The position numbers and the translations under genes were made by a program. A DNA stretch of 29,546 nt from a virus. The first letter of the stretch is position 1. Each line of letters begins with the position of its first letter. The DNA lies in IMG/VR virus record IMGVR_UViG_3300017765_000028, positions 1-29,546 of that record, one strand, 5' to 3'. The notes below the pieces were generated by a model. The model made no database searches. It saw only the letters and a list, made by a program, of their open reading frames with translations, and had not been told where the DNA came from. Shown piece by piece: positions 1-21,139 of the stretch.

Positions 1-30
1 GCAGCTGTGCTGGCTGCAACAAACCCGATG

Positions 31-199
31 AATTGTTCGGGTTCTGTCTGCGCCGTCCCTGGGAGGCTGCGCCGATTCAGGGTTCCGCCGAGAGATTCGA
101 GCCGGGCAACAAGAACAATTGTTCGGGTTTCGGGGTTGTCCTCCTCGGAACGGCGAGCTGCCAGCTCCGACCTGGTAGATTCCACCCGAACATTTCTGG
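31..199. repeat. GTTCGGG repeat cluster I (upstream regulatory region)
   Basis: GC-rich non-coding DNA with three perfect copies of the heptamer GTTCGGG or its complement, at 35-41, 121-127 and 185-191 (the last inverted). The middle copy is part of a 12-bp palindrome GAACAATTGTTC at 113-124. ORFs across this stretch have no ribosome binding site and only translate the repeat. A second cluster with the same heptamer and palindrome lies at 1036-1320. Each cluster ends with CCCGAACATTT about 45-50 bases upstream of a TTGAC plus A-tract element, so the two look like duplicated control regions. A binding site for a phage or host regulator, or an origin-type iteron set, is inferred. Confidence 0.7.
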
Positions 200-254
200 C
201 TGCCCGCTGCACAGCCAGCGTCAAATGATTGACACAAAAAAATGTATTTTTTGC

Positions 255-283
255 TTGATTGTGTGAAAATAGTTTCCTATATT
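255..283 (+). promoter_or_regulatory. Putative sigma70-type promoter for the first small operon
   Basis: TTGATT (255-260) and TATATT (278-283) are separated by 17 bases in very AT-rich DNA, about 110 bases before the first gene. A second TTGACA lies at 229-234 and an A/T palindrome, AAAAAATGTATTTTTT, lies just after it. Transcription would start near 290, leaving an untranslated leader of about 100 nt. Alternative -10 registers such as TATTAT (280-285) are possible. Confidence 0.6.
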
Positions 284-290
284 ATATAGT

Positions 291-360
291 GTAGGCGGTG
301 AATGAGTCGAACTGTCACTGTACAAGTTACAAACTTTGAAAGGCTAACGTAGCCGCCTAC
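291..360 (+). promoter_or_regulatory. Structured 5' leader closed by an 8-bp inverted repeat
   Basis: GTAGGCGG (291-298) pairs exactly with CCGCCTAC (353-360), enclosing 54 nt. Inside, GGCTA-ACG-TAGCC (about 343-355) forms a small hairpin that competes for the distal arm of the long stem. The segment begins at the predicted transcription start and ends about 20 nt before the ribosome binding site of the first gene. The arrangement could be an RNA switch, a stability element or a small RNA. It does not match any riboswitch consensus I can recall. Confidence 0.4.
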
Positions 361-393
361 TCTTTGTGAGAACTAGAACTAGGAGAAAAGACT

Positions 394-606
394 ATGAAGA
401 TTACAAAACAACATTTAGTTAATATGGGTTTTACCAAAACTGATTTAGGTGGCGGTAATGAAGGTTACTCTTTAGAACTTCCTAACGGGTACAGTATGCT
501 GTTTACTGGTGAGGGTTTAGGCGCTCATGTAGAAAGTGAAGGCACGAGTTTTGGTATTTATCACCCAGAGCATGAATTTGTTTGGGGTACAGAGGGGGCG
601 CTGTAA
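394..606 (+). CDS. Small hypothetical phage protein (70 aa)
   Basis: An ATG follows a good ribosome binding site, AGGAG at 381-385, eight bases upstream. The 70-aa product is soluble and slightly acidic, with a Gly-rich turn segment (LGGGNEGYSLELPNGY) and no membrane segment or Cys. I do not recognise a family. It is the first gene of a two-gene operon between a promoter near 255-283 and a terminator at 986-1011, and its stop lies one base before the next start. Its place next to the control region suggests an early or accessory role, possibly acting on the host. That is inference only. Confidence 0.7.
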   Translation: MKITKQHLVNMGFTKTDLGGGNEGYSLELPNGYSMLFTGEGLGAHVESEGTSFGIYHPEHEFVWGTEGAL

Positions 607-607
607 G

Positions 608-943
608 ATGGACTACAAGAAGCAAGAAATTCAAGAGCACTTCGAGGAGTGGTTGGAAGAGCAGATTATTCATCAAGGCGGTGATTGGGTTATGGACAAC
701 CTAGACGAACTTCACCACGAGTGCTTCAACACAGACTATTACATCATTGGCACGCAAGATGCCATCGAGTGGATGGGCAACCAAGCATTTGGAATTATCC
801 AATTCGTCAAAGAGTATGAAGAAGACAACTTCGGGCAGTGTGGCACACCATTGGACGACCCAGAGCGCGTTGTGAATATGTATGTCTATATCATTGGTGA
901 AGAAGTAGTGAACGATTACAGAGCAAAGAAAGACGCCGCTTAA
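608..943 (+). CDS. Conserved hypothetical phage protein (111 aa)
   Basis: I chose the ATG at 608 (MDYKKQEIQ), one base after the preceding stop, rather than an upstream in-frame start inside the previous gene. The 111-aa protein is strongly acidic, rich in aromatic residues and predicted helical. The segments HHECFNTDYYIIGTQDAIEW and IIQFVKEYEEDNFG resemble small hypothetical proteins I recall from marine phages and cyanophages, but no function is known to me. There is no transmembrane segment. A strong intrinsic terminator begins about 40 bases after the stop, so the pair 394-943 is a closed transcription unit. Confidence 0.75.
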   Translation: MDYKKQEIQEHFEEWLEEQIIHQGGDWVMDNLDELHHECFNTDYYIIGTQDAIEWMGNQAFGIIQFVKEYEEDNFGQCGTPLDDPERVVNMYVYIIGEEVVNDYRAKKDAA

Positions 944-985
944 TCAATCGCCCGCCCGTGCGTTATCGGGTTTCCTCCCAAACTG

Positions 986-1011
986 CCCCCGCCTCGTGCG
1001 GGGGTTTTTTT
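986..1011 (+). terminator. Rho-independent terminator
   Basis: CCCCCGC (986-992), loop CTCGT and GCGGGGG (998-1004) are followed by seven T. It closes the operon 394-943 and separates it from the second GTTCGGG cluster. Confidence 0.9.
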
Positions 1012-1035
1012 ATGCTCGCATTACCTGCTGGCGTT

Positions 1036-1320
1036 AATTTGTTCGGGTTGAATCACAGCTGCCCGCTTACCTGCGGCGGGATATGTTCGGGATTCGGGCA
1101 ACCTGCTCCCTGGTTCGGTATATGTTCGGGTTCTGGCCTCCCTAGCTCGGGGTCGGGTTGTTCGGGTTTCGGGCTTCTAAGGTTCTGGCAGCAAATTGTT
1201 CGGGTCGGGGCGCCGTCTTCCCAGGCAGCAGCGGAAAACCCGAACATTTGTTCGCAAATTTGCAGCTGGCGCCAGGCGCAGCGCAGCGTTTTGACGGCAA
1301 AAAAAATCGAACAATTGTTC
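1036..1320. repeat. GTTCGGG repeat cluster II (regulatory region before the amidoligase)
   Basis: Six perfect heptamers lie at 1041-1047, 1085-1091, 1124-1130, 1160-1166, 1198-1204 and, inverted, 1239-1245. A near copy, GTTCGGT, is at 1113-1119. Two palindromes have the form GAAC-N4-GTTC: CGAACATTTGTTCG at 1241-1254 and GAACAATTGTTC at 1309-1320. One pair, GTTC at 1113 and GTTC at 1124, has the N7 direct spacing of alphaproteobacterial LexA boxes, but this spacing is not general. The stretch is GC-rich and has no credible gene. It matches cluster I in motif, order and position relative to a promoter. Confidence 0.75.
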
Positions 1321-1337
1321 TTTTTTTACTATACTAT
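1309..1337 (+). promoter_or_regulatory. Putative promoter/operator of the amidoligase gene
   Basis: The palindrome GAACAATTGTTC (1309-1320), flanked by an A-tract and a T-tract, is followed by a good -10 hexamer TATACT (1330-1335). No consensus -35 lies 17 bases upstream. The -35 position (about 1307-1312) falls on the palindrome, as expected for an activator site or an operator that blocks polymerase. TTGACG at 1291-1296 is too far from this -10. Confidence 0.5.
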
Positions 1338-3438: not shown

Positions 3439-6400
3439 ATGGCGCAAAAAAACATGATGGGCGGTGGCATGGCGCCACCCCCGGCTTCTCCCGCTAATCC
3501 TACAGCGTTAAATTTCCAGAGTGACCCGAACATGCGACAGCAGTTCAAGGGTTTTATGTCTGGTTTGTCTAAAAGGGCGGAGTCACAACCCGTGGCGCAA
3601 CCTTTACCTTCGCCTATGCCGATGTACACGCCTGCTGCGGACATAGATATTTTTCAGCCTATGCCTATGGAAATGGGGGGTATGGTTCCTCGTTCTACTG
3701 AGATTGCTGGTCAGCCACATATGTTATCGTACATTACGCCTGGTGAGGCTATGGCTTTGAGGTCTATGGGCGGCTCTGGACAACCTGGGCCTGCTGGTAT
3801 TCCTGCTTTTAGTTATGAAGATGAGGCTTTTGGCGGTGCTAGTTCTTCTGCGGGGTTCGGCGGCAGCACTAATTTTAGTTCTGGTGGCGGTGGGAATAAC
3901 AACACCAGTGACGATGATAACGATTACACTCCCGGTTTTAGTCAAACTTATACCGATGGTACTCCTGCTGGCACCACGATTAGTGGCAACACAATCACGG
4001 GTGGCACAATCAAAGGCGGGTTCACTCGTGGGGAAGTGCTTGGTGGTGACGATAGCGGCGGCGATAACATTGCTGTTGGCCCAGTTGCTTTTGGTATTGG
4101 TGCGCGTCCTAGTGTAAACTTATCGGCTCGTACAATGCCTGTGAGTGGTGGCGATGCGTTGTCCAATGAGATAGGCAAGCGTTCTAGCTATGATGATGCG
4201 CCTATGAATTCTAGGGGTTTGTTAACCAATCAGGCGCAGGCTGACGCGGCTATGGGTATTGGTGGTGGTTTTGGGGCTACGGGCGCAACGCAATCAGTCA
4301 GTGGTTCTCCCACCGCTAGTGGTTATGACGAATTTGCCTTAGGCCCCCTTAACTTACTTGGAAATGTTAATTTATTAGACCCTGATGCTGTCATGCGTCA
4401 GGCGCTTGATTCAAGTGCACGTTTAATGCAGGACGCTTACGGTCAGGTTGCTGTTAACCCAGAACTGACGGGTCTTCCTGGTGGCGCCGCTGTGGTTTCT
4501 GGCAGGCCGCTGCAGACTGTTGACGAGATAATGTATAACGACGCAATGATGCGTACAGATATGTCTCCTGCTGATATGGAGCGTATTCAGCGCGAACGTG
4601 CGGCGCAGGATATTACGCGCCGTGGTGGTACTGTAGATGTTAATCCTGAAACTGGTCAGCTTATTGCAAATTACCCTCAGACTCCTTCTATGCTAGATAC
4701 TGTGCCACAGTCCATACCCACTCCGATTGGTATGCCTGATGAAATTCGTTCTATGCGAGATACATTTAATGATTTAGATGTTTTTGGTCCGAATACAGGT
4801 GGCGCTCCTGTTACTATTGGCACTCCAGAGCCTCGCCCAGATACGCCTTTTGAGCAAGGCGCAGCGGCTGGAGAGAGGGTTGCACAAGGGGAGCCGTCTG
4901 GCACTTCTTCTGACTATTATTCAGAAGCTCAAGGTGGGTTTGGGCGTGAGCGCACAGAAGCTGGCAGAACTAACAGGGTGGCTGATTCTGGTTTTGGCTC
5001 AGGTGAAATTTACAGAACAAAAGGCGATGATTTAACTCAGGATGAGCAGAACAAGTTGATTGAAAACGCCATGAATCGGCGGACGACTGTTACGCTTGGA
5101 CTTCAGGACCCTAGATTTGGGGGGAGTGCCCCGCCTCTTGGCACAAAAGACGCTGTAACTGTCAGTTCTCTTGACCAGCTAGCTAGAAGGGCTGGTTTAG
5201 CTCCCGGTTCATTTGGGGGTCAAATAGCTGAAGACTTAGGTTTTTTTGGTCAGTCAATCGCTAATTTTGGGGCTAAAAACGCTGGCAAGATGTATGATAA
5301 CATCGTTAACAAGGGGCATCGTCCTGTTTACGATAACCGTGGTCAGATTATCGCCACTGTAAATAGTTTGGGCCAGATAGGCGCTGGCAGTCGTCCGATT
5401 AACATGGACTTTGTTTCACGCGCTGGTGATGACATGTTTGATTTAGAGGGCTTCACTTACGACCAGGTCGCTGACATGCAAGCCTCGACTAAAGGCGGTG
5501 ACAATCCTTTAATTATCGCCGACCAAATAAGAAAAATAGACAAAGAGGTTGCTGAACGGTCTGAGGGGCTTGGTGGAATTGGTGATGCGCCTCCGCAGGC
5601 TCCTTCCACTGTTCAGCCTTCCACTTCTTTAAGTGGCGCAGCGCAAGTAGCTAATCCGCTTCAGTATGGTTATGGTCAGATTCAGGGCATTAATCCTAAC
5701 TTAGACAATGCCGCGAATAAGTTCTTATCATTCCTTGGCGGTTTTGCCGAGGGTGGCGAGGTTGAGAAATTCAGAGGTGGCGGCGGTGTAGGTCGTCAAG
5801 ATTATCAGGGCGGCACTATGTCTGGCGTTACTGGAGATGTATCTGGCAGCACGACTTCTGATGCGGCGTCCAGTCGAGCTACTGAAGGCGTAAATAGCGG
5901 CACTGGGCGTTCTTTCTCTGGGGCGGAATTGTCCGGCAATCAGAACATGACAAGTGACAACAACGCAGTTCAAAGCGTCATGGCGACACCTGTTCAGAGG
6001 CAGACAGTTATAGCTACACCGTTAGATGGCCCTGCGCCACAAGCAGAGAAATTAGTGCCTGTGGAAGGTGCACAGTCACAGCCGCAAATTCAGCAACAGC
6101 AAATCGTTCCCGGGAACATGATTCAGACGCAGGCTGGCCCTATTGACCCTGCATCAATGAGTCTTTCTGAAAAAACGAGCTTGATAGGTGAGGGTTTAGG
6201 CAATCTCTTGGATTTTGATTTGTTTAGTGCCCCAGAAGTTGATGGGGAAATGGCGGCGAGATTCGAGGCTGCTGGTTTTAGCCCATCTGCGGCGGCGAGT
6301 ATAGCAACTCCTACAGGCGGCCTCTTTGATATTCCTGAGTCCGTTCCTCTAGGCGCTGCGCAAACCAGTTACAAGCAGTTTGCTACCACCCCTGAAAGCA

Positions 6401-6570
6401 AGATTAACATGGGTAGAGTAGATATGGGCGATAGAGGTTTTGACTTCAGTGGTTTAGGCGATGTGCTTGCTAGAGCCTATGACGCAACAAAGCAGAAGCT
6501 TTCAACGGCTCTTGACCCAGTGGATTACAGCAATTTAGACCAGCTTGGTCAAAATCTTAGGAATCAGTAA
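3439..6570 (+). CDS. Large glycine-rich putative virion protein (1043 aa)
   Basis: No enzyme domain is recognised. The N-terminus starts MAQKNMMGGGMAPPP. Residues about 94-126 hold MLSYITPGEAMALRSMGGSG and PGPAGIPAFSYEDE, a segment I recall from large marine-phage virion-associated proteins. Residues 140-240 are Gly/Ser/Thr/Asp-rich low complexity; the middle is Gln/Pro/Met-rich. Near 765-785, FAEGGEVEKFRGGGG resembles the tags on small proteins downstream. There is no signal peptide or transmembrane segment. The start has a GAGG ribosome binding site 38 bases after the repressor gene. Being first in the late operon and next to the terminase, it could be an internal (ejected) or accessory virion protein; this is inference. 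Its stop overlaps the next ATG by one base. Confidence 0.8.
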   Translation: MAQKNMMGGGMAPPPASPANPTALNFQSDPNMRQQFKGFMSGLSKRAESQPVAQPLPSPMPMYTPAADIDIFQPMPMEMGGMVPRSTEIAGQPHMLSYITPGEAMALRSMGGSGQPGPAGIPAFSYEDEAFGGASSSAGFGGSTNFSSGGGGNNNTSDDDNDYTPGFSQTYTDGTPAGTTISGNTITGGTIKGGFTRGEVLGGDDSGGDNIAVGPVAFGIGARPSVNLSARTMPVSGGDALSNEIGKRSSYDDAPMNSRGLLTNQAQADAAMGIGGGFGATGATQSVSGSPTASGYDEFALGPLNLLGNVNLLDPDAVMRQALDSSARLMQDAYGQVAVNPELTGLPGGAAVVSGRPLQTVDEIMYNDAMMRTDMSPADMERIQRERAAQDITRRGGTVDVNPETGQLIANYPQTPSMLDTVPQSIPTPIGMPDEIRSMRDTFNDLDVFGPNTGGAPVTIGTPEPRPDTPFEQGAAAGERVAQGEPSGTSSDYYSEAQGGFGRERTEAGRTNRVADSGFGSGEIYRTKGDDLTQDEQNKLIENAMNRRTTVTLGLQDPRFGGSAPPLGTKDAVTVSSLDQLARRAGLAPGSFGGQIAEDLGFFGQSIANFGAKNAGKMYDNIVNKGHRPVYDNRGQIIATVNSLGQIGAGSRPINMDFVSRAGDDMFDLEGFTYDQVADMQASTKGGDNPLIIADQIRKIDKEVAERSEGLGGIGDAPPQAPSTVQPSTSLSGAAQVANPLQYGYGQIQGINPNLDNAANKFLSFLGGFAEGGEVEKFRGGGGVGRQDYQGGTMSGVTGDVSGSTTSDAASSRATEGVNSGTGRSFSGAELSGNQNMTSDNNAVQSVMATPVQRQTVIATPLDGPAPQAEKLVPVEGAQSQPQIQQQQIVPGNMIQTQAGPIDPASMSLSEKTSLIGEGLGNLLDFDLFSAPEVDGEMAARFEAAGFSPSAAASIATPTGGLFDIPESVPLGAAQTSYKQFATTPESKINMGRVDMGDRGFDFSGLGDVLARAYDATKQKLSTALDPVDYSNLDQLGQNLRNQ

Positions 6571-6683: not shown

Positions 6684-8168
6684 ATGAACAATCAATTTGA
6701 TATACCTGTTGAGTATCTTACTGACGATGAAATAGCAGAGCTTAGTAAGGTAGTAGGGCGCTTTGAAGAGGTATCTAAGAGAGACGAAAACCAAGAAGGT
6801 TTCATGTCTTTTGTAAAGCATGTTTGGCCTACCTTTATTGAGGGCAATCACCACAAGATTTATGCTGAAAAGCTACAGCGGGTGGCTGAAGGCAAGTTGA
6901 AGCGGTTGATTGTGAACATGCCGCCCCGACACACGAAATCTGAATTTGCGAGTTATTTATTTCCTGCTTGGTTGATGGGTCGCAAGCCCGAAACCAAGAT
7001 TATTCAGGCGACACACACGGCTGAGTTGGCTGTGGGTTTTGGTCGTAAGGTCAAGAACCTTATTGACAGTGAGATATATCGTGATGTGTTCCCTGAGTTG
7101 AAGCTTGCGGCTGATGCAAAAGCGTCTGGTCGCTGGTCTACATCTAAAGGGGGCGAGTATTATGCTGTGGGCGTTGGTGGCGCGTTGGCTGGTCGTGGTG
7201 CTGATTTGTGTATTATTGATGACCCTGTTTCTGAACAAGATGCGTTATCACCCACAGCCCTTGATAATATTTACGAGTGGTACACTTCAGGCCCCCGACA
7301 GCGTCTCCAGCCAGGAGGCGCAATAATTATTGTTATGACGCGGTGGAGTATCCGTGACTTGACAGCAAAGGTGTTGCAGAAGCAGGCGGAGGGTGGCGCT
7401 GACAATTGGGAGGTTGTAGAGTTTCCTGCAATTTTCCCCGATAATGACAAGGTTTTATGGCCTGAATATTGGAAGAGGGAGGAGTTAGAGGCTGTAAAGG
7501 CGTCTATTCCCGTTGCTAAATGGAACGCGCAGTATTTGCAGAACCCTACCGCCGAAGAGGGCGCGATTATCAAAAGGGAGTGGTGGAATGTTTGGGATAG
7601 TGGTGAGCCGCCAGCTTGCTCATACATCATACAATCATACGATACTGCCTTCTCTAAGTCAGAGAGAGCGGACTATTCTGCTATTACTACTTGGGGTATT
7701 TTTGAACCTGTGGATGGAGACGGGGAAGCCATCATCTTACTTGACGCGCAACGAGGTAGATGGGATTTTCCAGAACTTAAACAAGCTGCCCAAGATTTAT
7801 ACGAAGAGTTTGAACCAGACATGGTTCTTATCGAGCAGAAAGCCAGCGGTATGCCGCTCACGCAGGAGTTGCGGCGCATGGGCGTGCCCGTCACACCCTT
7901 TACGCCTTCAAGGGGCGCTGATAAATTTACCCGCATGAACGCCTGTGCGCCAGTGTTTGAATCTGGTATGATATGGCGGCCTGATATGAATTTTGCCGAG
8001 GAAGTGGTCGAGGAATGTGCCGCATTTCCTAATGGTGAGCATGATGACTTGGCGGATTCAATGACACAGGCTATACTGAGGTTCAGGCAGGGTGGGTTTA
8101 TTATTACTCCCTCTGATTATGATGAAGATGATTATAGAGAGTTTCGTAGGAAACGGGAGTATTACTGA
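6684..8168 (+). CDS. terL: Terminase large subunit
   Basis: The ATP-driven DNA packaging motor and nuclease, acting at the portal of the prohead. The 494-aa protein has a typical length. The N-terminal ATPase shows an atypical Walker A, MPPRHTKS (79-86), Walker B LCIIDD (175-180) and the coupling motif MTRW (218-221). The C-terminal RNase H-like nuclease has SYDTAFSK (D320), VLIEQKASG (E384) and GEHDDLADS (D454/D455). Both active sites appear complete. The start at 6684 follows AAAGGG; the stop overlaps the next ATG (TGATG). No small terminase subunit could be identified nearby. Confidence 0.97.
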   Translation: MNNQFDIPVEYLTDDEIAELSKVVGRFEEVSKRDENQEGFMSFVKHVWPTFIEGNHHKIYAEKLQRVAEGKLKRLIVNMPPRHTKSEFASYLFPAWLMGRKPETKIIQATHTAELAVGFGRKVKNLIDSEIYRDVFPELKLAADAKASGRWSTSKGGEYYAVGVGGALAGRGADLCIIDDPVSEQDALSPTALDNIYEWYTSGPRQRLQPGGAIIIVMTRWSIRDLTAKVLQKQAEGGADNWEVVEFPAIFPDNDKVLWPEYWKREELEAVKASIPVAKWNAQYLQNPTAEEGAIIKREWWNVWDSGEPPACSYIIQSYDTAFSKSERADYSAITTWGIFEPVDGDGEAIILLDAQRGRWDFPELKQAAQDLYEEFEPDMVLIEQKASGMPLTQELRRMGVPVTPFTPSRGADKFTRMNACAPVFESGMIWRPDMNFAEEVVEECAAFPNGEHDDLADSMTQAILRFRQGGFIITPSDYDEDDYREFRRKREYY

Positions 8169-8485
8169 TGGCTAAACCTGAAGCACCGATTATGCCCGAA
8201 GAGGTAAGGAAAAAGCGCAACGCAAGTGCGGAGCGTACTGAGCGTCCGTCTAGAAAGGCCTACAAAGAGATGGGCTTTACTGACGCTGAATTGAAAAAAA
8301 TGGGTATGAAAGATGGCGGCGAAGCTGTTCCTGCAAAATTCAAAGGCTTTTCCAAGCTACCTGAAGGTGTTCAGGAGAAAATGGACCCTAAACTTGCTCA
8401 GAAGTATGAAAAGGGTGGGGCTGTTGGCAGTTGCCGTGGTATGGGTGCTGCTCTGCGCGGTGGCAAGTTCTCTGGAGTGAAGTGA
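8168..8485 (+). CDS. Small basic protein with C-terminal GGAV...KFSGVK tag (105 aa)
   Basis: A Lys-rich protein with an N-terminal helical half (MPEEVRKKRNASAERTERP, then a FTDAELKKMGMKDGGEAVPAKF segment) and a Gly-rich C-terminus: KYEKGGAVGSCRGMGAALRG followed by GKFSGVK (about 79-105). The two genes downstream end in related tails, as does the protein at 12998-13237. It starts within the terminase stop and ends overlapping the next start, so it is tightly coupled in the packaging operon. It may be a minor virion or head-assembly protein; no function is known to me. Confidence 0.8.
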   Translation: MAKPEAPIMPEEVRKKRNASAERTERPSRKAYKEMGFTDAELKKMGMKDGGEAVPAKFKGFSKLPEGVQEKMDPKLAQKYEKGGAVGSCRGMGAALRGGKFSGVK

Positions 8486-8712
8486 TGGAAAAGATTGACG
8501 GCCTTACACCGCGTCAAATCCTCACCAAAGGTACTACGCAGGGCGTTGGAAGCCTTACCAATGCTCAGTATGACAATTATACTCTTCAGATTGATAATCA
8601 AAAGAAGGGCGTGCCTAATTACAGCAAGAGTCCTCGTAAATACGCATCTGGCGGCGCGGTTCGTGGTTATGGTGCGGCAACCTCTGGGACAAAGTTTAAG
8701 GGTATATTCTGA
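8485..8712 (+). CDS. Small protein with C-terminal GGAV...KFKGIF tag (75 aa)
   Basis: I chose the ATG at 8485 (MEKIDGLTPRQ), which overlaps the preceding TGA by one base, over an in-frame start at 8431 inside the previous gene. The N-terminal half is hydrophilic; the tail reads KYASGGAVRGYGAATSGTKF then KGIF, the same pattern as its two neighbours. The protein is basic with no Cys. The repeated TGATG junctions suggest equal production of this trio. Their function is unknown; a shared address signal for the head is discussed in the findings. Confidence 0.8.
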   Translation: MEKIDGLTPRQILTKGTTQGVGSLTNAQYDNYTLQIDNQKKGVPNYSKSPRKYASGGAVRGYGAATSGTKFKGIF

Positions 8713-8906
8713 TGGCAAAACCTTTTAAATCAAGAAAAGAAATAGCTAAAGGCTTTCAAAATAAGCCTTTTAGAGCGTTTAAAAAGCAGGGTATGATAGC
8801 TGATTTTATAAGAGCCATTCAGGGAGAGCTTCCTCCGTTTAAAAAATACGAGAACGGTGGGGCTGTAACAAAAGGCCGTGGCGGCAAGTTTAAAGGAGTA
8901 TTCTAA
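8712..8906 (+). CDS. Small basic protein with C-terminal GGAV...KFKGVF tag (64 aa)
   Basis: The third of three consecutive tagged proteins. Residues 1-45 are very basic and helical (KPFKSRKEIAKGFQNKPFRA); the tail is KYENGGAVTKGRGGKFKGVF, the most compact version of the motif. The start overlaps the preceding TGA and the stop overlaps the next ATG. The conserved tail on otherwise unrelated N-termini argues that the tail itself is functional. Confidence 0.8.
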   Translation: MAKPFKSRKEIAKGFQNKPFRAFKKQGMIADFIRAIQGELPPFKKYENGGAVTKGRGGKFKGVF

Positions 8907-9322
8907 TGTCTGGCATCATCCGCATTGAAATCGACATGAATAGCATCGAGGATATGATTCCCGGCTACGGCGATGGGGATGATGATAACTTTGTGTGTCC
9001 TGTTTCTACACAAGATGCCGATTTAAATAAAAAAAACAGACAAGTGGCAGTGGACGAAAGGCATTATGGCGTTCCTTCTGTTGAGAAAACAGAGAAAGAA
9101 ATGCGTTGTGGTACATGCGCTAACTTCAACTTACGCTCTGCGCTGCTTAATTGCATATCGGAGGGCTTGGGGCTAAAGGAGGGTAGTGGCTATTGTGACG
9201 AACTGCATTTTGTGGCTTCAATGGAAAACGTCTGTGATTTATGGTCTGTTGGGTCGCCCACAACAGATGGCGATTTAGACGATTATCCTTCAGACATGGG
9301 GAATCAGAAGGATATTATGTAA
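8906..9322 (+). CDS. Cys-rich putative metal-binding protein (138 aa)
   Basis: An acidic N-terminal part (1-65) is followed by a Cys-rich module, C68-x2-C71-x11-C83-x13-C97-x12-C110, with flanking aromatic residues (CGTCANFN, GYCDELHFVA, VCDLW). The spacing suggests a zinc ribbon-like fold or an iron-sulphur site of the high-potential type; I cannot choose between them from sequence. One more Cys is at 31. It starts inside the stop of the preceding gene and overlaps the next start by one base. Proteins with CGxCANF and CDxW motifs are familiar from marine phages, but I know of no assigned function. Confidence 0.75.
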   Translation: MSGIIRIEIDMNSIEDMIPGYGDGDDDNFVCPVSTQDADLNKKNRQVAVDERHYGVPSVEKTEKEMRCGTCANFNLRSALLNCISEGLGLKEGSGYCDELHFVASMENVCDLWSVGSPTTDGDLDDYPSDMGNQKDIM

Positions 9323-10476
9323 TGGACATAAAAGACCGTATTTTAGAGCCATTTGACTTTCAGAAGTCACCTAGTATGAGCAGCCAGATGTTTGAGGCTG
9401 CTCCTAGTGTATTTGGCGGAAAAGATGGTGCTAATCTATTGCAAACAGCCAACAGAGTTATGATTGGTGGGCCTTTGGATATATTTGACCTAATTGGTCG
9501 CGCTGGCGATGCTGGGCTTCGCGGTGCGGCGGAAGTAATTGGCGAGGGCTATGAGGCATTAGGCGGTGGGCAAGGTATGTCGAAGCGGTTAAAGCGAGAC
9601 ATTTACGGGTTGGGTCAGATGGCTGGATTAGTTGCAGGGGCAAGCCCTTCGTCTCTGTCTGGCGCGAGAGTTCCCTCCACTCGCCGCGCCTCCGCATCTG
9701 ACTCAACGCCTTCTGAGGGGATTATGAAGGCGTTAGAGAGTCCACCAAAACCTGCTGGTTTATTGCCCGCGCCAAAGTCTAGAAAAGCTTTAGAAGGTGA
9801 GATTGTTTCAGGGCCTTCTGATAAATTTCTTCAGGCTCAAGCAAAAAGAGACAAGGCAATCTCTAAACAAGGTAGAGAAGTATATGAAGAAGAGATGGAT
9901 TACCTTGGCTTAGAAGACTCTTTCCAGACAATTAAGGCAGATATTGAGGATGGTCTGGAGGGCGCTGTTGACAGAGGTTTCGAGCCTGTAGATGTAGATG
10001 GTTTCTTTGATGACTTTCAAGACACTGTTATGTATCGCCGTATGCAGGCAGAGGGGCGGGGCGAAAAGCCTAATATGGGTGAAATTATTGCCGAAGAGCT
10101 TCCTAAAAAGATTGATGATTATGAACAAAGCTTTGGTCTTTTTGTAGATTCCAATGATATGGTTAACAAAATTTCAAAAACAGCAGACAATGTTTATGGT
10201 TTTGGCATAAGCAAGGCGAAAAAGCGCCGTGATGATGCGGCGGAATCTGTTAGTAAGTTACGCTCTGAGAGAAATCGTTTGGCGATGGAAAACAACCAAA
10301 GAGAATATTATAGAAGCATTGGCATTACTGACGATATGACAGATGACCAAATAAGAGATATACTGTACGAGCGTCAAACAGGCATGCAGCGTGATTTGGC
10401 AGGGGCGGGCATTCCAGAGCCAAAGCAACAGAAACCCAATTTGCGTGTTGTGATTGATAATGAGGACTTAGACTAA
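9322..10476 (+). CDS. Putative internal or portal-associated virion protein (384 aa)
   Basis: The ATG at 9322 (MDIKDRILEPFDF), overlapping the preceding TAA, is preferred to a start at 9241 inside the preceding gene. Residues about 45-110 are Gly/Ala-rich and moderately hydrophobic (PLDIFDLIGRAGDAGLRGAA), a feature of proteins that insert into membranes on ejection. Residues 170-330 are acidic, helical and partly coiled coil. There is no catalytic motif. It sits directly before, and overlaps by one base, the portal gene. An internal virion or ejection protein is the best guess; confidence in the function is low. Confidence 0.75.
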   Translation: MDIKDRILEPFDFQKSPSMSSQMFEAAPSVFGGKDGANLLQTANRVMIGGPLDIFDLIGRAGDAGLRGAAEVIGEGYEALGGGQGMSKRLKRDIYGLGQMAGLVAGASPSSLSGARVPSTRRASASDSTPSEGIMKALESPPKPAGLLPAPKSRKALEGEIVSGPSDKFLQAQAKRDKAISKQGREVYEEEMDYLGLEDSFQTIKADIEDGLEGAVDRGFEPVDVDGFFDDFQDTVMYRRMQAEGRGEKPNMGEIIAEELPKKIDDYEQSFGLFVDSNDMVNKISKTADNVYGFGISKAKKRRDDAAESVSKLRSERNRLAMENNQREYYRSIGITDDMTDDQIRDILYERQTGMQRDLAGAGIPEPKQQKPNLRVVIDNEDLD

Positions 10477-12929
10477 TGGCAGTTGAAAAAGGCATAGGTT
10501 CAGGCGGTGACAATGTGGTGCCAATGAACCCTCAAGAACAAGCTGAAATTGATATCATTGAGATGGCTAAAGAACCCGGTCAAGTCACAATGGAAGATGG
10601 TTCTGTTATCATGGGAGACATTTCTGAAGAAATGATGATGACAGAAGTTCCGATTGACATTCCTTTTGACGCTAATTTAGCAGACTTTATGGACGATGCG
10701 GAAACTTCTTCTATCGCTTCTGATTTGATGGGTGACGTAGAGGACGATATGTCCTCTCGTGAAGATTGGGAAGACACTTATAAAAGTGGTATAGAGCTAC
10801 TTGGCATGAAGTATGAGGAACGCTCACAGCCATTTGAAGGCGCGTCTGGCGTTGTACACCCTTTGCTTGCTGAATCAGTTACGCAGTTTCAGGCGCAGGC
10901 TTATCGTGAGCTTCTGCCTGCTGGAGGTCCTGTTCGCACTCAAATCATTGGTGATGAGTCGCAAGATAGATTGGCACAGGCAGACCGTGTAAAAAATTAC
11001 ATGAATTACCAGATTACTTATGAAATGGAAGAATACGACCCTGAGTTAGACCAGATGCTGTTTTATCTTCCGCTAATAGGTAGCACCTTTAAGAAAATTT
11101 ACTTCGACCCCCTATTGCAAAGGGCTGTTTCTAAGTTCGTTCATGCCGAAGATTTAGTTGTTCCCTACACGGCAACAGACCTAGCCTCTGCAACACGCAT
11201 TACACACATTGTTAAAATGGATAAGAACGAAGTTCGTAAACTACAGCTTACAGGTTTCTATTCTGATATTGATTTGCCTGGGGATGGGTACTCTGAGGAA
11301 GATTATTCAGAGGTGCAAGAGACAATAGATGATGTTCAGGGAATTTCTCCGACTGGAAACAACGAAGACATTACATTATACGAAGTACATACAAACTTGG
11401 ACTTATCTGGCTTTGAAGATATGAATATTGAGGGCGAGGAAACTGGCCTGAAGTTACCGTATATTGTTACTATCTGTGAGAAAAACGGCAAAGTCTTGTC
11501 TATTCGCCGTAATTACGAACAAACAGACCCTCTACGCCGTGCCAAGCCTTATTTTGTACATTACAAATTCTTGCCTGGTCTGGGCTTCTACGGTTTTGGG
11601 CTTACACATATGATTGGCGGACTGTCTCAAGCAGCAACCAGCTTGTTAAGACAGCTAATTGATGCTGGCACCTTGTCTAACCTCCCAGCAGGGTTCAAGG
11701 CTCGTGGCGCTCGTATCCGTGATGAAGACGAACCACTAAATCCTGGTGAGTTTCGTGATATTGATGTCGCGGGTATGGACATCCGCCAATCTCTGATGAC
11801 GCTACCATTTAAGGAGCCCTCGCAGACGCTCTACGCGCTTCTAGGAACGCTTGTTGACTCTGGGCGTAGGTTTGCGTCTATGGCTGACATGAAGATAGCT
11901 GAGATGGGCGGAGAGACGCCTGTAGGTACTACTATGGCTATTATGGAGCGTGGCACAAAAGTAATGTCTGCTATTCATAAGCGGCTGCACTATTCTCAGA
12001 AAATTGAATTTAAACTTTTGGCTGGTGTTTTCGCTAAATTTATGGCGCCTATGTATCCGTATGCGGTACCAGGAGCCCCACCAGAAATAAAAACAACAGA
12101 TTTTGATGACCGAATTGATGTTCTGCCAGTTTCAGACCCAAATATTTTTTCTATGTCACAGCGTATTGCTTTGGCGCAGACGGAATTACAGTTAGTTCAA
12201 TCAAACCCTCAGATTCATGGAAATGAACAAGGGTTGTATCAAGCGTACAGAAAAATGTACGAAGCATTAGGAGTCACCAATGTTGATGCCATACTCCCTC
12301 CACCACCTGTGCCGCAACCTACGAATCCAGCTAAAGAGAATCAAGAGGCAATGCGAGGCAAGCCTTTACAGGCTTTCGCAGAACAGAATCATCAGGCGCA
12401 TATTGAGGCGCACCTCGCAATTATTGCAACACCTGTGGCACAGGCTAACGCAGCTATAGTAATGACGTTGCAGGGTCATATTCAAGAGCATCTTGGATTT
12501 ATGGCTGAGTCTATGGCGCAAGAAGAAATTGTGAATCAACTTTCACCAGAAGAACAAATGCAGTTGCAATCTTCTCAGGAGGGCATGATGGCTTTCCAAA
12601 CAGAGGTTGCTTCTCGCGCTGCCGAGCTTGTTGGTGAGTTGACTGAGCAATATGCACAGGCGGTTACTCCGCCACAGCAAGTAGACCCACTTGTAGCCAT
12701 ACGCCAGCAAGAGTTAGCTCTTCGCGGCGCTGATATTGAGCGCAAGACGAAAGAGGCCGATGATAAAGCTCAGTTTGAGCGGGAAAAAGAATTAAACGAC
12801 CAAATGGAAGCGCAGGCTCGTTTAGGTATTCAAAAAGAGGCTCTGAATGAAAAAACCAGAGTTGCAGAAGAGAGCATTCAAACTCAAAGGGACATAGCCG
12901 CCTTAAACAACATGACAAAGGGACAATAA
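10476..12929 (+). CDS. Portal protein (P22-like, 817 aa)
   Basis: The dodecameric channel at the capsid vertex, docking site of the terminase and connectors. The acidic N-terminus (1-95) is followed by the hallmark segment WEDTYKSGIELLGMKYEERS, then PFEGASGVVHPLLAESV and YRELLPAGGPVRTQ (about 97-157). Further on are DQMLFYLPLIGSTFKKIYFD, the VHAEDLVVPY segment, and PVGTTMAIMERGTKVMSAIH (stem/wing region). The C-terminus (about 690-815) is a long Gln/Glu/Lys-rich coiled coil, comparable to the barrel and tail of P22-type portals. The length is near that of P22 gp1 (725 aa). The start overlaps the upstream stop (TAATG). Confidence 0.93.
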   Translation: MAVEKGIGSGGDNVVPMNPQEQAEIDIIEMAKEPGQVTMEDGSVIMGDISEEMMMTEVPIDIPFDANLADFMDDAETSSIASDLMGDVEDDMSSREDWEDTYKSGIELLGMKYEERSQPFEGASGVVHPLLAESVTQFQAQAYRELLPAGGPVRTQIIGDESQDRLAQADRVKNYMNYQITYEMEEYDPELDQMLFYLPLIGSTFKKIYFDPLLQRAVSKFVHAEDLVVPYTATDLASATRITHIVKMDKNEVRKLQLTGFYSDIDLPGDGYSEEDYSEVQETIDDVQGISPTGNNEDITLYEVHTNLDLSGFEDMNIEGEETGLKLPYIVTICEKNGKVLSIRRNYEQTDPLRRAKPYFVHYKFLPGLGFYGFGLTHMIGGLSQAATSLLRQLIDAGTLSNLPAGFKARGARIRDEDEPLNPGEFRDIDVAGMDIRQSLMTLPFKEPSQTLYALLGTLVDSGRRFASMADMKIAEMGGETPVGTTMAIMERGTKVMSAIHKRLHYSQKIEFKLLAGVFAKFMAPMYPYAVPGAPPEIKTTDFDDRIDVLPVSDPNIFSMSQRIALAQTELQLVQSNPQIHGNEQGLYQAYRKMYEALGVTNVDAILPPPPVPQPTNPAKENQEAMRGKPLQAFAEQNHQAHIEAHLAIIATPVAQANAAIVMTLQGHIQEHLGFMAESMAQEEIVNQLSPEEQMQLQSSQEGMMAFQTEVASRAAELVGELTEQYAQAVTPPQQVDPLVAIRQQELALRGADIERKTKEADDKAQFEREKELNDQMEAQARLGIQKEALNEKTRVAEESIQTQRDIAALNNMTKGQ

Positions 12930-12997
12930 AATGTCAGCAAGTTCACTAAATCGTAAAGTCGCAGAAATACAAAAAATAAAGAAAATGGAGCGTAGAA

Positions 12998-13237
12998 ATG
13001 CCGCTGTTAAAAGGTATGAGTCAGAAAACGATATCGTCAAACATATCGAAACTGAGGTCGGAGGGATATCCGCAGAGACAAGCGGTGGCGATAGCTTTGA
13101 GACAATCAAATCCGAAGCCCCAAAAGAAAAGCCAAAAAAGTCAGCAGCAAAAAAAACCAGTAGCTCTAAAAAAGGGTGGGCTAGTAAAAAACTTCTCTCC
13201 GATAGCTAGGCCACAAAGGTTTAAAGGTGTTTTTTAA
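12998..13237 (+). CDS. Small basic protein with EGYPQRQAVAIAL motif and KFKGVF-type tail (79 aa)
   Basis: The N-terminus MPLLKGMSQKTISSNISKLR followed by SEGYPQRQAVAIAL is a pattern I know from many phage small proteins, so I prefer this frame to the 92-aa ORF that overlaps it (12931-13209). The middle is Lys/Gln-rich. The C-terminus, GGLVKNFSPIARPQRFKGVF, ends like the three tagged proteins after the terminase. TGGAG lies nine bases before the start. The stop overlaps the next ATG (TAATG), which supports this frame. The role is unknown; probably a minor head or morphogenesis protein. Confidence 0.75.
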   Translation: MPLLKGMSQKTISSNISKLRSEGYPQRQAVAIALRQSNPKPQKKSQKSQQQKKPVALKKGGLVKNFSPIARPQRFKGVF

Positions 13238-13551
13238 TGGCTCAAAAGAGACTTCAGAAAAACAGTGGGTACGATGAGTACGACATAGACGGGGATGGCG
13301 TTGTTACTGACGAGGAGTTAGAGCACGCGAAAGAAATTCGTCAAACTGAAAGAGATTTGCGTAAAAGTTTAGCTCAACTTCGTATGGCTAGATTTACATT
13401 AATAGCTATGGGCGCTTTTACCGCCGCAATGTTTATTGTGCCTCTTGATAGAGTGGAGGCATTGAGCGATATATCAAATCTTTTTTACATTTCTGGTGCT
13501 GGCATTGTGGGAGCTTATATGGGCACGACCGCCTGGATGAGTAGAAAATAA
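13237..13551 (+). CDS. EF-hand protein with two membrane segments (104 aa)
   Basis: Residues 16-27 (DIDGDGVVTDEE) are a canonical EF-hand calcium loop, with ligands at positions 1, 3, 5, 9 and 12 all present. A charged coiled coil follows (28-48), then two hydrophobic helices, about 51-70 (ARFTLIAMGAFTAAMFIVPL) and 82-100 (LFYISGAGIVGAYMGTTAW). The protein would sit in the inner membrane with a calcium-binding N-terminal domain. It lies at the head of a run of membrane proteins that includes the holin, so a lysis-related or entry-related role is plausible but unproven. The ATG overlaps the previous stop. Confidence 0.85.
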   Translation: MAQKRLQKNSGYDEYDIDGDGVVTDEELEHAKEIRQTERDLRKSLAQLRMARFTLIAMGAFTAAMFIVPLDRVEALSDISNLFYISGAGIVGAYMGTTAWMSRK

Positions 13552-14611: not shown

Positions 14612-15007
14612 ATGTTACAAGCATTAATTGGTCCAGCAACAGAGCTTATTGGTAAATTTGTAGAGGACAAAGACAAAAAGAACGAGTTGGCTCATCAGAT
14701 AGCAACAATGGCTGAACGCCATGCCCAGGAACTCGCAAAAGGGCAGTTGGCTATCAATGCAGAGGAAGCAAAATCCAGAAATGTTTTTGTGGCTGGCTGG
14801 CGGCCCTTTATTGGCTGGTCCTGCGGGCTTGCGTTGTTCGCGCATTTTCTGCTTTTTCCGACCGCCGATGTAGTGACTGCTTACATGGGATACCCCCCTG
14901 TAGCTTACCCAGCCTTTGACATGGATAGCTTAATGACTATATTACTGGGGATGCTCGGATTGGGTGGAATGCGTAGCTTTGAAAAGTATAAAAAGCTAAC
15001 TAAATAA
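14612..15007 (+). CDS. Holin of the GTA 3TM type
   Basis: The protein (131 aa) matches the family of holins with up to three transmembrane segments used by gene-transfer agents. The N-terminal region MLQALIGPATELIGKFVEDK is followed by the helix HQIATMAERHAQELAKGQLA and NAEEAKSRN. The signature VAGWRPFIGWSCGLALFAHF (58-77) begins the main membrane segment, and SLMTILLGMLGLGGMRSFEK (about 106-125) forms the last. It would make the inner-membrane hole that times lysis. A strong ribosome binding site, GGAGGGG, precedes it. No endolysin was recognised beside it. The family is typical of alphaproteobacterial elements. Confidence 0.88.
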   Translation: MLQALIGPATELIGKFVEDKDKKNELAHQIATMAERHAQELAKGQLAINAEEAKSRNVFVAGWRPFIGWSCGLALFAHFLLFPTADVVTAYMGYPPVAYPAFDMDSLMTILLGMLGLGGMRSFEKYKKLTK

Positions 15008-15716: not shown

Positions 15717-16403
15717 ATGAGCACAGAGCAAATGCAAGAAATTGAAGAAAATCTCACAGTAGATTTTGAAGACGGCGAACAAGTTCTTGAAAAAAGTCAG
15801 GAACAACCCGAACAAATGTTCGACTCTTCCGAACAAGTTGATTCTGAAGGTGTTAGCGGTGATGAACTTGAGAATTACAGCGGAAATGTTCAAAAGCGCA
15901 TAAACCAGTTAACCGCAAAGCGCAAGCAAGCCATTGAAGAGGCCGAAGCGGCGTATAATTATGCTCAACAAGTTCAAGAACAAAATGAGCAAATGAAAAA
16001 AAGGCTCGCAGAGCTAGACCAAGGCTACACTAATGAATACGGGGCTCGCGTTGATTCGCAACACGAGCAAGCTAAAAAACTTTTAAAAGAAGCCCGTGAG
16101 ATTGGTGATGTTGAAAAAGAAATAGAAGCGCAAGATTTAATCGCTAGGCTTGCTATAGAAAAAGAACGTGTTCGCGTTCAAAAAGTAAGGCAAGAGCAAG
16201 CGGCACAACAGCCAGAAGAGCCGCCGCAATCTCCGCAGCGCCAACAGGCGCAAAGGGTAGAGGACTTAGACCCTAAACTAAAAACGTGGATGGGTAAAAA
16301 CGAAAATTGGTTTGGCAAAGACATGGTTATGACCCGTGGGGCACAGGCCATTCACGAAACATTAGTTGGTGTAGAGGGGTATGACCCAACTAGCGATGAT
16401 TAA
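15717..16403 (+). CDS. Scaffold-like head protein, ended early by an in-frame TAA
   Basis: The 228-aa product is acidic at the N-terminus (1-50), then a long coiled coil rich in Glu, Gln and Lys (about 55-165), a Gln/Pro linker, and KTWMGKNENWFGKDMVM then VGVEGYDPTSDD. Position before the capsid genes and composition mark an internal scaffolding protein. The frame continues after TAA (16401-16403) with YAEIDKRMRVEFPHKFQAQR, which reads like the natural continuation, for a full length near 304 aa. A strong GGAGG site precedes the start. Whether the stop is real, suppressed or an error cannot be settled here. A perfect GAAC-N4-GTTC palindrome lies in the gene at 15809-15822. Confidence 0.8.
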   Translation: MSTEQMQEIEENLTVDFEDGEQVLEKSQEQPEQMFDSSEQVDSEGVSGDELENYSGNVQKRINQLTAKRKQAIEEAEAAYNYAQQVQEQNEQMKKRLAELDQGYTNEYGARVDSQHEQAKKLLKEAREIGDVEKEIEAQDLIARLAIEKERVRVQKVRQEQAAQQPEEPPQSPQRQQAQRVEDLDPKLKTWMGKNENWFGKDMVMTRGAQAIHETLVGVEGYDPTSDD

Positions 16404-17706: not shown

Positions 17707-18615
17707 ATGGCTATTTCAAGAGCACAGCTAGTTAAAGAACTAGAGCCAGGCCTGAACGCCCTGTTCGGCATGGAATATGACCGCTATGACGCGGAGCACG
17801 CAGAAATTTTCGACACTGAATCATCAGACCGTGCGTTTGAAGAAGAGGTAATGCTCGTTGGTTTCGGCAACGCTCAAACTAAAGCTGAAGGTGCAGGCGT
17901 ATCTTTCGATAATGCTTCAGAAGCATACACAGCACGTTACAGCCATGAGACTATCTCATTGGCTTTCGCGCTGACTGAAGAAGCAATGGAAGATAACTTG
18001 TATGACCGTCTTGGCGCTCGTTACACCCGCGCATTGGCACGCTCAATGTCGCATACAAAGCAAGTAAAAGCCGCTGCTGTCCTAAATAATGCTTTCGACA
18101 GCAACTTTGCTGGCGGTGATGGTAAAGAGCTTTGCGCTACTGACCACCCATTAGCTGGCGGCGGTACTTTCCGTAACGAGCTTGCAACAGCGGCTGACCT
18201 TAACGAAACATCACTTGAGAATGCCTTAATTGACATCTCAACTTTCGTTGATGAGCGGAACATGATTATCGCATTACGCGGTACTAAGTTAATTGTTCCG
18301 ACACAGCTTCAGTTTGTTGCTGACCGTCTGCTTGAGTCTACATTGCGTGTAGGCACAGCAGATAATGATGTGAATGCAATTCGCAACATGGGTATGTTGC
18401 CAGAGGGTTACACTGTTAACCACTTCCTAACAGACCCAGATGCTTTCTTTATCAAAACAGATACACCAAATGGCTTTAAGCACTTTGAGCGTACTCCTAT
18501 GTCAACAGGCATGGAAGCTGATTTTGATTCAGGCAACATGCGCTTTAAAGCTCGTGAGCGTTATAGCTTCGGTTATTCCGACCCACGCGCTGTATTCGGT
18601 TCCCCAGGAGCCTAA
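17707..18615 (+). CDS. Major capsid protein (302 aa, Mu gpT-like / HK97 fold)
   Basis: The main head protein. Motifs in order: QLVKELEPGLNALFGMEYDR, the SHETISLAFALTEEAMEDNL helix (80-99), ARYTRALARSMSHTKQVKAA (spine helix, about 105-124), CATDHPLAGGGTFRNELATA (143-162), then ALRGTKLIVPTQLQFVADRL and the C-terminal FKARERYSFGYSDPRAVFG. The DHPLAGGG turn and the following helix resemble Mu gpT-type major head subunits, which have the HK97 fold. There is no N-terminal delta domain, in keeping with a separate scaffold gene. AAGGAG precedes the start and a strong terminator follows. Confidence 0.88.
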   Translation: MAISRAQLVKELEPGLNALFGMEYDRYDAEHAEIFDTESSDRAFEEEVMLVGFGNAQTKAEGAGVSFDNASEAYTARYSHETISLAFALTEEAMEDNLYDRLGARYTRALARSMSHTKQVKAAAVLNNAFDSNFAGGDGKELCATDHPLAGGGTFRNELATAADLNETSLENALIDISTFVDERNMIIALRGTKLIVPTQLQFVADRLLESTLRVGTADNDVNAIRNMGMLPEGYTVNHFLTDPDAFFIKTDTPNGFKHFERTPMSTGMEADFDSGNMRFKARERYSFGYSDPRAVFGSPGA

Positions 18616-19502: not shown

Positions 19503-19787
19503 ATGGCTCGTAAAAGGGACAAGCAACCGCCTAAAACAAAAAAGTATTTCCGCTCTACTAAAAGTGGAGCGGGAATGACTAAGGCTGGTGTCGCTAAATA
19601 TCGCAGAGACAACCCAGGAAGCAAGCTAAAAACGGCTGTTACTGGGAAGGTTAAAAAAGGTTCTGCGGCGGCAAAACGCCGTAAATCATTCTGCGCTCGA
19701 AGCGCTGGTCAAATGAAGAAATTTCCTAAAGCAGCTAAAAATCCCAATAGCCGTTTGAGACAGGCGAGGCGTAGATGGAAATGCTAG
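19503..19787 (+). CDS. Very basic small protein (94 aa), DUF6321-like
   Basis: About a third of the residues are Lys or Arg. Conserved-looking segments are KSGAGMTKAGVAKYRRDNPG and KRRKSFCARSAGQMKKFPKA, ending in RRRWKC; two Cys (68 and 94) are present. I recall this arrangement in a small-protein family of phages and large viruses (DUF6321, name from memory). The strong charge suggests nucleic-acid binding, perhaps inside the head. It is the first of a group of very basic proteins between capsid and connector genes and overlaps the next gene by 13 bases. Confidence 0.82.
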   Translation: MARKRDKQPPKTKKYFRSTKSGAGMTKAGVAKYRRDNPGSKLKTAVTGKVKKGSAAAKRRKSFCARSAGQMKKFPKAAKNPNSRLRQARRRWKC

Positions 19788-20021: not shown

Positions 20022-20294
20022 ATGCCGAAAGATGCTTGTTATAAGAAAGTAAAAGCTCGATACAGAGTTTTTCCAAGCGCGTATGCAAGCGGCGCCATTG
20101 CCAAATGCAGAAAAGTGGGTGCCAAGAATTGGGGAAATAAGTCCAAGGCAAAGAAAAAAGCTGCGGGCGGCATTGTAACTATGGAAAATGGCGGTGTTGT
20201 TAATAAAGCAAAGCGTCCGTCTAAAAATAAAAATGTAGCACGCGGCTGTGGTGTTGTTATGAGTAATAGGCGTAAAAAAACTCAATACGCATAA
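20022..20294 (+). CDS. Very basic small protein with GCGVVMSNRRKKTQYA tail (90 aa)
   Basis: I chose the ATG at 20022, which has GGGGAG upstream and lies four bases after the preceding stop, not the in-frame ATG at 19965. The N-terminal module DACYKKVKARYRVFPSAYAS, followed by GAIAKCRKVGAKNWGN, is a recurrent small phage module with two Cys. The middle has KKAAGGIVTMENGGVV, and the end reads RGCGVVMSNRRKKTQYA, a tail type I remember from many marine-phage small proteins. It is positively charged throughout. Its function is unknown; a nucleic-acid-binding or virion-internal role is inferred. Confidence 0.8.
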   Translation: MPKDACYKKVKARYRVFPSAYASGAIAKCRKVGAKNWGNKSKAKKKAAGGIVTMENGGVVNKAKRPSKNKNVARGCGVVMSNRRKKTQYA

Positions 20295-20304
20295 TGGGGC
20301 GGAT

Positions 20305-20583
20305 ATGGCGGTTAGAAAAACAAAAGCTGGAGCTAATCTCAAGCGGTGGTTCAAAGAGGACTGGAAGGATGTTCGCACGGGGAAAGCATGTGGGCGCCGC
20401 AAAGGAGAAAAACGGGGCACTCCATATTGTCGCCCCAGCAAGAGGGTTTCTTCCAAAACTCCAAAAACCTCCAAAGAAATGACCTCCGCTGAAAAGCGAA
20501 GTAGGATATCTCAGAAGAAGCGTATTGGACAGCCTGCTGGCAAACCGCGCCGGGTAAAATCTTTGAAGCGAAAGAGAAAGTAA
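20305..20583 (+). CDS. Very basic small protein (92 aa), DUF5872-like
   Basis: The 92-aa protein has LKRWFKEDWKDVRTGKACGR, then RRKGEKRGTPYCRPSKRVSS and TPKTSKEMTSAEKRSR, ending in RVKSLKRKRK. The WFKEDWKDV...CGR...PYCRPS pattern marks a small family found in phages (DUF5872, name from memory). The two Cys could bind a metal with neighbouring residues. The start at 20305 is favoured over an overlapping ORF at 20294 in another frame because of the conserved motifs and the GGGGCGG site. It belongs to the basic-protein group. Confidence 0.82.
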   Translation: MAVRKTKAGANLKRWFKEDWKDVRTGKACGRRKGEKRGTPYCRPSKRVSSKTPKTSKEMTSAEKRSRISQKKRIGQPAGKPRRVKSLKRKRK

Positions 20584-20584
20584 A

Positions 20585-21139
20585 ATGTCTTTGGAGGGGC
20601 AGGTAAAACAAGAGCTTCGTCTCTGGTCTAAAGAGGCGCTAGAAAAGCCTAATGAGAACTACAATGGGCTTCCAGCTTGTCCGTTCGCAAAGAAATCGTG
20701 GTCTGAAGGCCGCGTTGGCTTTACGTTTAAAAGAGGCGCCTCTTGGAATGTTTTAATTGAAACAATTGAAGCCTGGGATGACAGCAAAGATGTTATTATC
20801 TTGATTGACTTTGAGTACCCAGAGCTCGATGAAATGTACAAATTTCTGGATGTTTTGAACGATACTTTGTCTGATGACGGCACTGATATGTTTGTTATGG
20901 GGTTTCACCCAGAAGCGGAGAGCAATGAATTTCTGAATGACTCCTTTGAGATGACTGATGATAATTCTTATGCTATGATATTTTTGCAACGCTTGACAAA
21001 ACTGCAAGAAGCCTCGAATCTTTTGAGAGACAAGGGGTATTATAAGTTTTGCGAGGATTATTATGACAATAACTCTCTGTACCAATTAAGAGAAATTCTT
21101 TATAGGAGATTAAAAGATGGCACCAAAGAAAAAAGTTAA
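20585..21139 (+). CDS. Conserved hypothetical protein (184 aa)
   Basis: An acidic alpha/beta protein, unlike its basic neighbours. Visible segments are ENYNGLPACPFAKKSWSEGR (24-43) with one Cys, DSKDVIILIDFEYPELDEMY (strand-helix), DDGTDMFVMGFHPEAESNEF, and a helical C-terminus with paired Tyr. The GLPACPFAKKSW motif occurs in cyanophage and marine-phage hypothetical proteins as far as I recall. A Cys-containing enzyme or metal site is possible but nothing confirms it. Its last 23 bases overlap the next small gene. Confidence 0.78.
   Translation: MSLEGQVKQELRLWSKEALEKPNENYNGLPACPFAKKSWSEGRVGFTFKRGASWNVLIETIEAWDDSKDVIILIDFEYPELDEMYKFLDVLNDTLSDDGTDMFVMGFHPEAESNEFLNDSFEMTDDNSYAMIFLQRLTKLQEASNLLRDKGYYKFCEDYYDNNSLYQLREILYRRLKDGTKEKS

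Follow-up and report, generated by a model that had tools for sequence, protein, structure and literature searches.

The DNA examined, referred to throughout as the window, is the whole of a 29,546-nucleotide stretch (positions 1-29,546 of IMG/VR virus record IMGVR_UViG_3300017765_000028), and it harbors a phage head module in which several small proteins end in a common C-terminal tag. The terminase large subunit (6684..8168, plus strand; phrog_38, E 2.6e-112) and the portal protein (10476..12929, plus strand; phrog_1216, E 1.7e-49) form the left and right borders, respectively, of the main cluster of tagged genes. They are followed on the same strand by an acidic protein encoded ahead of the capsid gene, in the position of a scaffold (15717..16403; phrog_28737; net charge -0.096 per residue), which by that position is a putative scaffold and a candidate partner of the tag, and by the major capsid protein (17707..18615), which is 66-72% identical in four cultured relatives and is likewise a candidate partner with a conserved surface.

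The four proteins for which an earlier note on this DNA had claimed a common C-terminal tag were confirmed to carry it, and the case for them is stronger than first stated: among the 48 genes of the window, four ends of the form [KR]FxGxx-stop were seen, versus 0.017 expected from C-terminal composition (P about 4e-9). All four are encoded on the plus strand. The first (8168..8485; 105 aa) consists of a variable N-terminus, a KFKGFSKLPE module and, at the C-terminal end, a type-B tag, GGAVGSCRGMGAALRGGKFSGVK (8414..8482), and also contains an internal tag-like sequence, GGEAVPAKFKGF (8315..8350). It is followed by a protein of 75 aa (8485..8712) that ends in GGAVRGYGAATSGTKFKGIF (8650..8709) and by one of 64 aa (8712..8906) that ends in tag A, GGAVTKGRGGKFKGVF (8856..8903); the fourth, of 79 aa (12998..13237), is encoded directly behind the portal gene and ends in tag C, GGLVKNFSPIARPQRFKGVF (13175..13234). 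Each of these open reading frames begins with ATG, and the stop codon of each overlaps the next ATG in the sequence TGATG (at 8485, 8712, 8906 and 13237).

A basic protein encoded behind the capsid gene (20022..20294, plus strand) carries a second type of C-terminal tail, type G (ARGCGVVMSNRRKKTQYA, 20238..20291), which is recurrent, as the earlier note had it, and proved strictly C-terminal, and which represents a tail type separate from the KFxG tag. The related motif that had been reported inside a 1043-aa protein, FAEGGEVEKFRGGGG, shares only GGxV; because the KFxG core is absent, it was rejected as a copy of the tag and was not counted. That protein (3439-6570) is Gly/Ser/Pro-rich, is encoded directly before the terminase gene, has homologs at the same place in close relatives, and gave no PHROG or Pfam match.

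The protein at 12998 is composed of an N-terminal PHROG 2423 body of two helices (phrog_2423, E 1.9e-12), a disordered K/Q/P linker and the type-C tag. In its AlphaFold model, the sole usable one, the two-helix body is confident and the linker disordered, while the tail has no regular strands and lies outside the confidently folded part. A Foldseek search of that model against the PDB gave no significant match, and the AlphaFold model of the 8168 protein was poor (pLDDT 58.6). Another open reading frame (12931-13209) overlaps that at 12998-13237 by about 210 bases in a different frame, and because both have homologs in relatives, they may represent a genuine pair of overlapping genes.

A GTA_holin_3TM-type holin (14612-15007) and a phage GroES/Cpn10 (15201-15698) are also encoded inside the head module. 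Behind the capsid gene lies a row of very basic small proteins (19503-19787, 20022-20294, 20305-20583 and 21117-21269), the features of which include DUF6321, a motif that recurs in proteins of cyanophages and other viruses, DUF5872 and a protein with KKMMRGGG repeats; these are candidate DNA-associated virion proteins.

Anatomy of the tag and its coding sequence

In a first set of 80 IMG/VR loci, gathered around the closest relatives of the window terminase, the end pattern was present in 128 stop-to-stop fragments on the coding strand versus five on the other strand; IMG/VR was also scanned with back-translated GRGGKFKG to remove the bias toward terminase. Among the matches listed in that scan, GRGGKFKG stood exactly two residues before the stop in all 88 that were readable, as did the type-C motif FxxIARPQRFxG in 124 of the 124 matches listed in a scan of its own, and GCGxVMxNRRKKT, the tail of the 20022 protein, stood 3-9 residues before the stop in 93 of the 93 IMG/VR matches listed. 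These three counts are lower bounds on abundance. A further tail, RGMGxAxxGKP, the matches of which were listed in full, lay six residues before the stop in all 11 of the closed matches that resembled genuine tails, the other closed matches being chance frames. Across all loci then collected, the strict core R[GP][GQT][KR]FxG was found two residues before the stop in 128 of 129 distinct cases.

The conserved columns of 169 distinct tags are R at -9, G/P at -8, G/Q/T at -7, K/R at -6, F/Y at -5, G at -3 and V/I/T at -2, with positions -4 and -1 variable and with GGxV placed a few to about twenty residues upstream. The layout of the tag, which occupies the last 15-23 residues, is GGxV, a short glycine-rich or FSxIA stretch, and R[G/P]x[K/R]FxGxx-stop. 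At the corresponding loci, relatives without KFxG have GGxV followed by basic tails of other kinds, and such tails take its place in some phages of the same terminase clade. Searches of cultured phages by tblastn with the 8485 protein and the tag peptides, the reach of which is limited by low-complexity masking, gave no match for the KFxG and RGMG-KIR tails, and the KKTK tail matched 023Pt_psg01 only; no such tails are present in Pam1, MinM2, CRP-901 or CRP-810. A search of open-access PMC found no published description of the tag, and the motif letters returned no phage paper there.

Of 192 tagged reading frames, 164 run into the following start codon or terminate in ATGA, and the glycine at -3 is encoded by GGA or GGG in 123 of 192, as compared with 7 of 120 for the glycine at -8; a Shine-Dalgarno sequence is therefore probably superimposed on the tag. 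The exact tag is nevertheless kept in the 28 tagged frames that have no overlap, several of which also lack a close downstream start, so that it is not merely a ribosome-binding site, and since the same codon bias is found in the few non-overlapping cases (12 of 16), overlap does not fully explain it. The conserved GRGGKF part precedes the Shine-Dalgarno sequence and varies freely in its codons, and in type-C tags RPQRFxG is kept with varied codons. A pure Shine-Dalgarno by-product was rejected on the retention of the tag without overlap and the diversification of the upstream codons.

The codon identity of conserved tag residues was 0.44 within genomes and 0.45 between them, versus 0.39 expected for independent choice, and on these values it was also rejected that the tags stem from a single DNA segment by recent duplication or gene conversion; synonymous change in the tag codons is near saturation. 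Tag identity remained at 0.72-0.80 across body identities of 30-90% and did not fall with body identity, and this independence, together with the diversified codons, shows that it is the peptide that is under selection. Tags within one genome are no more alike than tags from different genomes (permutation p 0.73), and the lack of a within-genome dialect suggests that the partner surface is conserved across the clade.

Tagged bodies and exchange of gene sets

Among the loci collected, 321 distinct KFxG-tagged proteins were grouped by their bodies, at 50% mutual coverage, into 73 clusters, a number that is given here as about 70 because a few of the clusters are chance matches (TKFFGKK, for example). 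The tagged bodies have a mean net charge of +0.13 per residue and 90% of them are net positive, while the terminase, portal, scaffold-position and capsid proteins are net negative. Comparison of the bodies with Pfam and PHROGs found no common domain and no convincing enzyme family, and almost none of them was recognized, the exceptions being weak single matches to EF-hand, dockerin and LysM/endolysin. As the majority of the bodies show no known domain, nothing supports an effector role, and effector or anti-defence roles would be speculation by analogy. EF-hand or dockerin-like calcium-loop motifs were noted in tagged or neighboring small proteins at L101:20-301, L080:11491-12192 and window 13237-13551.

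The description of the bodies as unrelated extends to about 70 of them, but it does not hold wholly in every phage, as is illustrated by the second conserved module and the internal tag-like sequence of the 8168 protein. That inner module, KFKGFSKLPExVQxKxDPxLAxKYExGG, is recurrent, and is followed by tag A or tag B depending on the phage; type-C tags are found on at least three different bodies. In one relative, L001, the parts that match the N- and C-termini of the 8168 protein are two separate tagged reading frames, so that the internal tag-like sequence, which lies at the junction of those parts, may be an old fusion joint, and modules appear to have been shuffled at tag borders. A PHROG-2423-type body ends in KKKTKIY in DSL-LC04 versus RPQRFKGVF in the clade of the window, which suggests that tail types are interchangeable.

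The terminase proteins of L001 and the window are 99.8% identical, and yet their tagged gene sets are largely different: similarity stops at the terminase stop codon and returns only patchily before the portal gene, and of the three tagged genes that the window encodes between terminase and portal, one (8485) has an ortholog in L001 that is 81% identical, one is split and one is replaced. The tagged gene set is thus hypervariable.

Gene maps place one to six tagged genes in tandem from terminase to portal, and a type-C gene directly behind the portal gene, with a small number of tagged genes located behind that for the capsid protein (in loci L106, L111, L129 and L135). Of the 18 tail matches present in six long records (45-58 kb), 17 fall either between terminase and an adaptor-like gene or directly behind portal, and the remaining one looks like chance; the random distribution that the earlier note had named as refuting its reading was thus not observed. 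At least one head gene homologous to those of the window is present in 201 of 201 loci with a type-C tag, a count that is partly by design, since some of the loci were fetched through the terminase. Loci that carry the GCG tail without window-type head genes have PHROG 12985, virion structural and tail proteins as neighbors. Type-C tags were also found on three metagenome-bin contigs filed under Rhodobacteraceae, Planktomarina and Verrucomicrobiota, which constitute weak evidence of hosts.

Candidate functions of the tag

A short and strictly positioned C-terminal peptide, swappable bodies and a location in the head module are best explained by an address tag directed at a conserved partner in assembly, and we assign a probability of about one half to a reading in which such a tag docks hypervariable small basic proteins on a conserved head-assembly partner, most likely for prohead loading. 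The last 15-23 residues, with a free C-terminus, would dock a wide range of small basic proteins onto a single conserved surface formed during head assembly, most likely the interior of the capsid or portal, or the scaffold-filled prohead; the tagged proteins would then be loaded with DNA into the prohead and would enter virions, and the analogy of the internal proteins of T4 suggests that they may subsequently be ejected into the next host. A partner surface common to the clade fits the capsid protein, given its identity among cultured relatives. Counted in favor of the address tag was the pairing of basic bodies with acidic capsid, portal and scaffold-position proteins; counted against it were the other basic tails that replace KFxG in some phages of the same terminase clade, and the fact that head-module position alone also fits assembly factors that stay unpackaged. 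The earlier note's address-signal proposal is supported in part, by one peptide on about 70 bodies, strict C-terminal anchoring, confinement to the head module and selection at the protein level; entry into proheads or virions, and a partner in scaffold, portal or capsid, are its putative parts. A search of open-access PMC found no virion proteomics of a tag-bearing phage.

Rather unlikely, in our estimate, is the alternative that the tag recruits such non-packaged assembly factors (transient packaging or connector helpers) to the terminase-portal motor or the portal vertex: the tagged genes are indeed found almost only between terminase and portal or immediately behind the latter, but some lie behind the capsid gene, and the fast exchange of sets between near-identical phages is unusual for core assembly helpers. 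Less probable still is a tail that acts as a basic Gly/Arg/Lys (RGG-like) nucleic-acid-binding peptide, by which the proteins would be held on phage DNA or RNA and would enter the head passively with DNA. While tails and bodies are basic, and KKTKxY or NRRKKT stands at the end of other tail types, binding that is not sequence-specific needs no invariant F at -5 or G at -3 from the stop, and the type-C FSxIARPQRFxGxF is not especially basic or RGG-like.

Lower again we would place engagement of a host protein (chaperonin, protease or other), for example to protect or redirect small proteins. The window and its relatives encode a Cpn10, the GGxV motif is faintly like the GroES mobile loop, and a tag common to many genomes fits a conserved partner of either host or phage; the tagged genes, however, cluster in the head module and not among early genes, and relatives without the KFxG tag have the GroES gene too. 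The conserved end might instead be mostly a by-product, serving as a Shine-Dalgarno sequence for the overlapping gene and/or as a short homologous linker that promotes cassette recombination. This we consider very improbable: the gene overlaps, the codon bias at the -3 glycine and mosaic breakpoints that coincide with the cluster edge would all be in keeping with it, and against it stand the exact tags of non-overlapping frames, the persistence of the codon bias in them, and the synonymous diversification of both GRGGKF and the type-C core.

For an address tag that docks small proteins during head assembly, several known systems provide points of comparison. In T4, the capsid targeting sequence (CTS) is N-terminal and is cleaved by the prohead protease. 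The internal proteins of T-even phages (IPI-III) are highly diverse small proteins that have only a short, conserved targeting sequence in common (PMC3012670). Both systems join a conserved short peptide to divergent proteins (here, about 70 bodies with tag identity independent of body) that are encoded with head genes and have basic, DNA-compatible bodies; the window-type tag is, in contrast, strictly C-terminal, the sequences are unrelated, and packaging is here putative. No separate prohead protease was seen among the window genes examined. The parallel would be functional, and homology is not claimed. For Family 1 encapsulins, a short C-terminal loading peptide on diverse cargo is recognized by an HK97-fold shell (PMC8346489). 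The likeness lies in the position of the peptide and not in its sequence, which is different, and the likely partner here would be a phage capsid, to which binding is presumed; encapsulin cargo consists of enzymes in a DNA-free compartment, whereas the tagged genes adjoin tailed-phage terminase, portal and capsid genes and their bodies belong to no convincing enzyme family.

Ejection proteins of the P22/T7 type are few, large and conserved. They are likewise encoded by head-module genes, and by hypothesis both groups would be loaded into the head and ejected, but the window-type tagged proteins are many, small and rapidly exchanged. Pelagiphages of the HTVC023P type and relatives (HTVC027P, 023Pt_psg01 and DSL-LC04) have homologous terminase, portal, GroES, scaffold-position and capsid genes in the same order as the window. 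HTVC023P gp32 carries RGVGAAIRGHKFIGVK, whereas HTVC027P and 023Pt are without the KFxG tag, and 023Pt and DSL-LC04 use KKTK-type tails. A published analysis of HTVC023P-type phages includes GroES in their core genome (PMC9599517), and a term search of it turned up no mention of tags.

A wider proposal, which is tentative though a real possibility, is that of a general C-terminal 'shipping code' in abundant marine podoviruses, in which interchangeable tail dialects (KFxGxx, RGMG...KIR and NRRKKTxY) would direct small proteins, from a hypervariable arsenal swapped as cassettes, to the head and so to the next host cell, as an independent counterpart of the T4 internal proteins. Were the tag to be a loading signal, virion cargo in widespread uncultivated marine phages could be predicted from the final ten residues of any gene product, dozens of hypothetical proteins would gain a function at once, and a short portable peptide would be at hand for putting foreign proteins into phage heads; the combination of a conserved targeting peptide with a variable arsenal, known from T4, would then exist in another phage lineage, with the signal at the opposite end of the protein.

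Other features of the window

Upstream of the head module, a protein of the Amidoligase_2 family is encoded at 1393-2511 (Pfam E 3.1e-12); this is an ATP-grasp-like peptide ligase, with no obvious substrate. A palindrome-like sequence, GAACAATTGTTCGGGT, has nine matches (at most three mismatches, both strands) versus 0.17 expected, at window positions 23-1325 and 15806-15825; its copies lie mostly in the low-coding first 1.4 kb, and it may serve as a regulatory operator or be a mobile palindrome. Three copies of 16-mers that resemble CTGTCAAAAAATTGAC, spaced 33 and 44 bp, are found at 2592-2684, in the intergenic DNA before the open reading frame at 2791.
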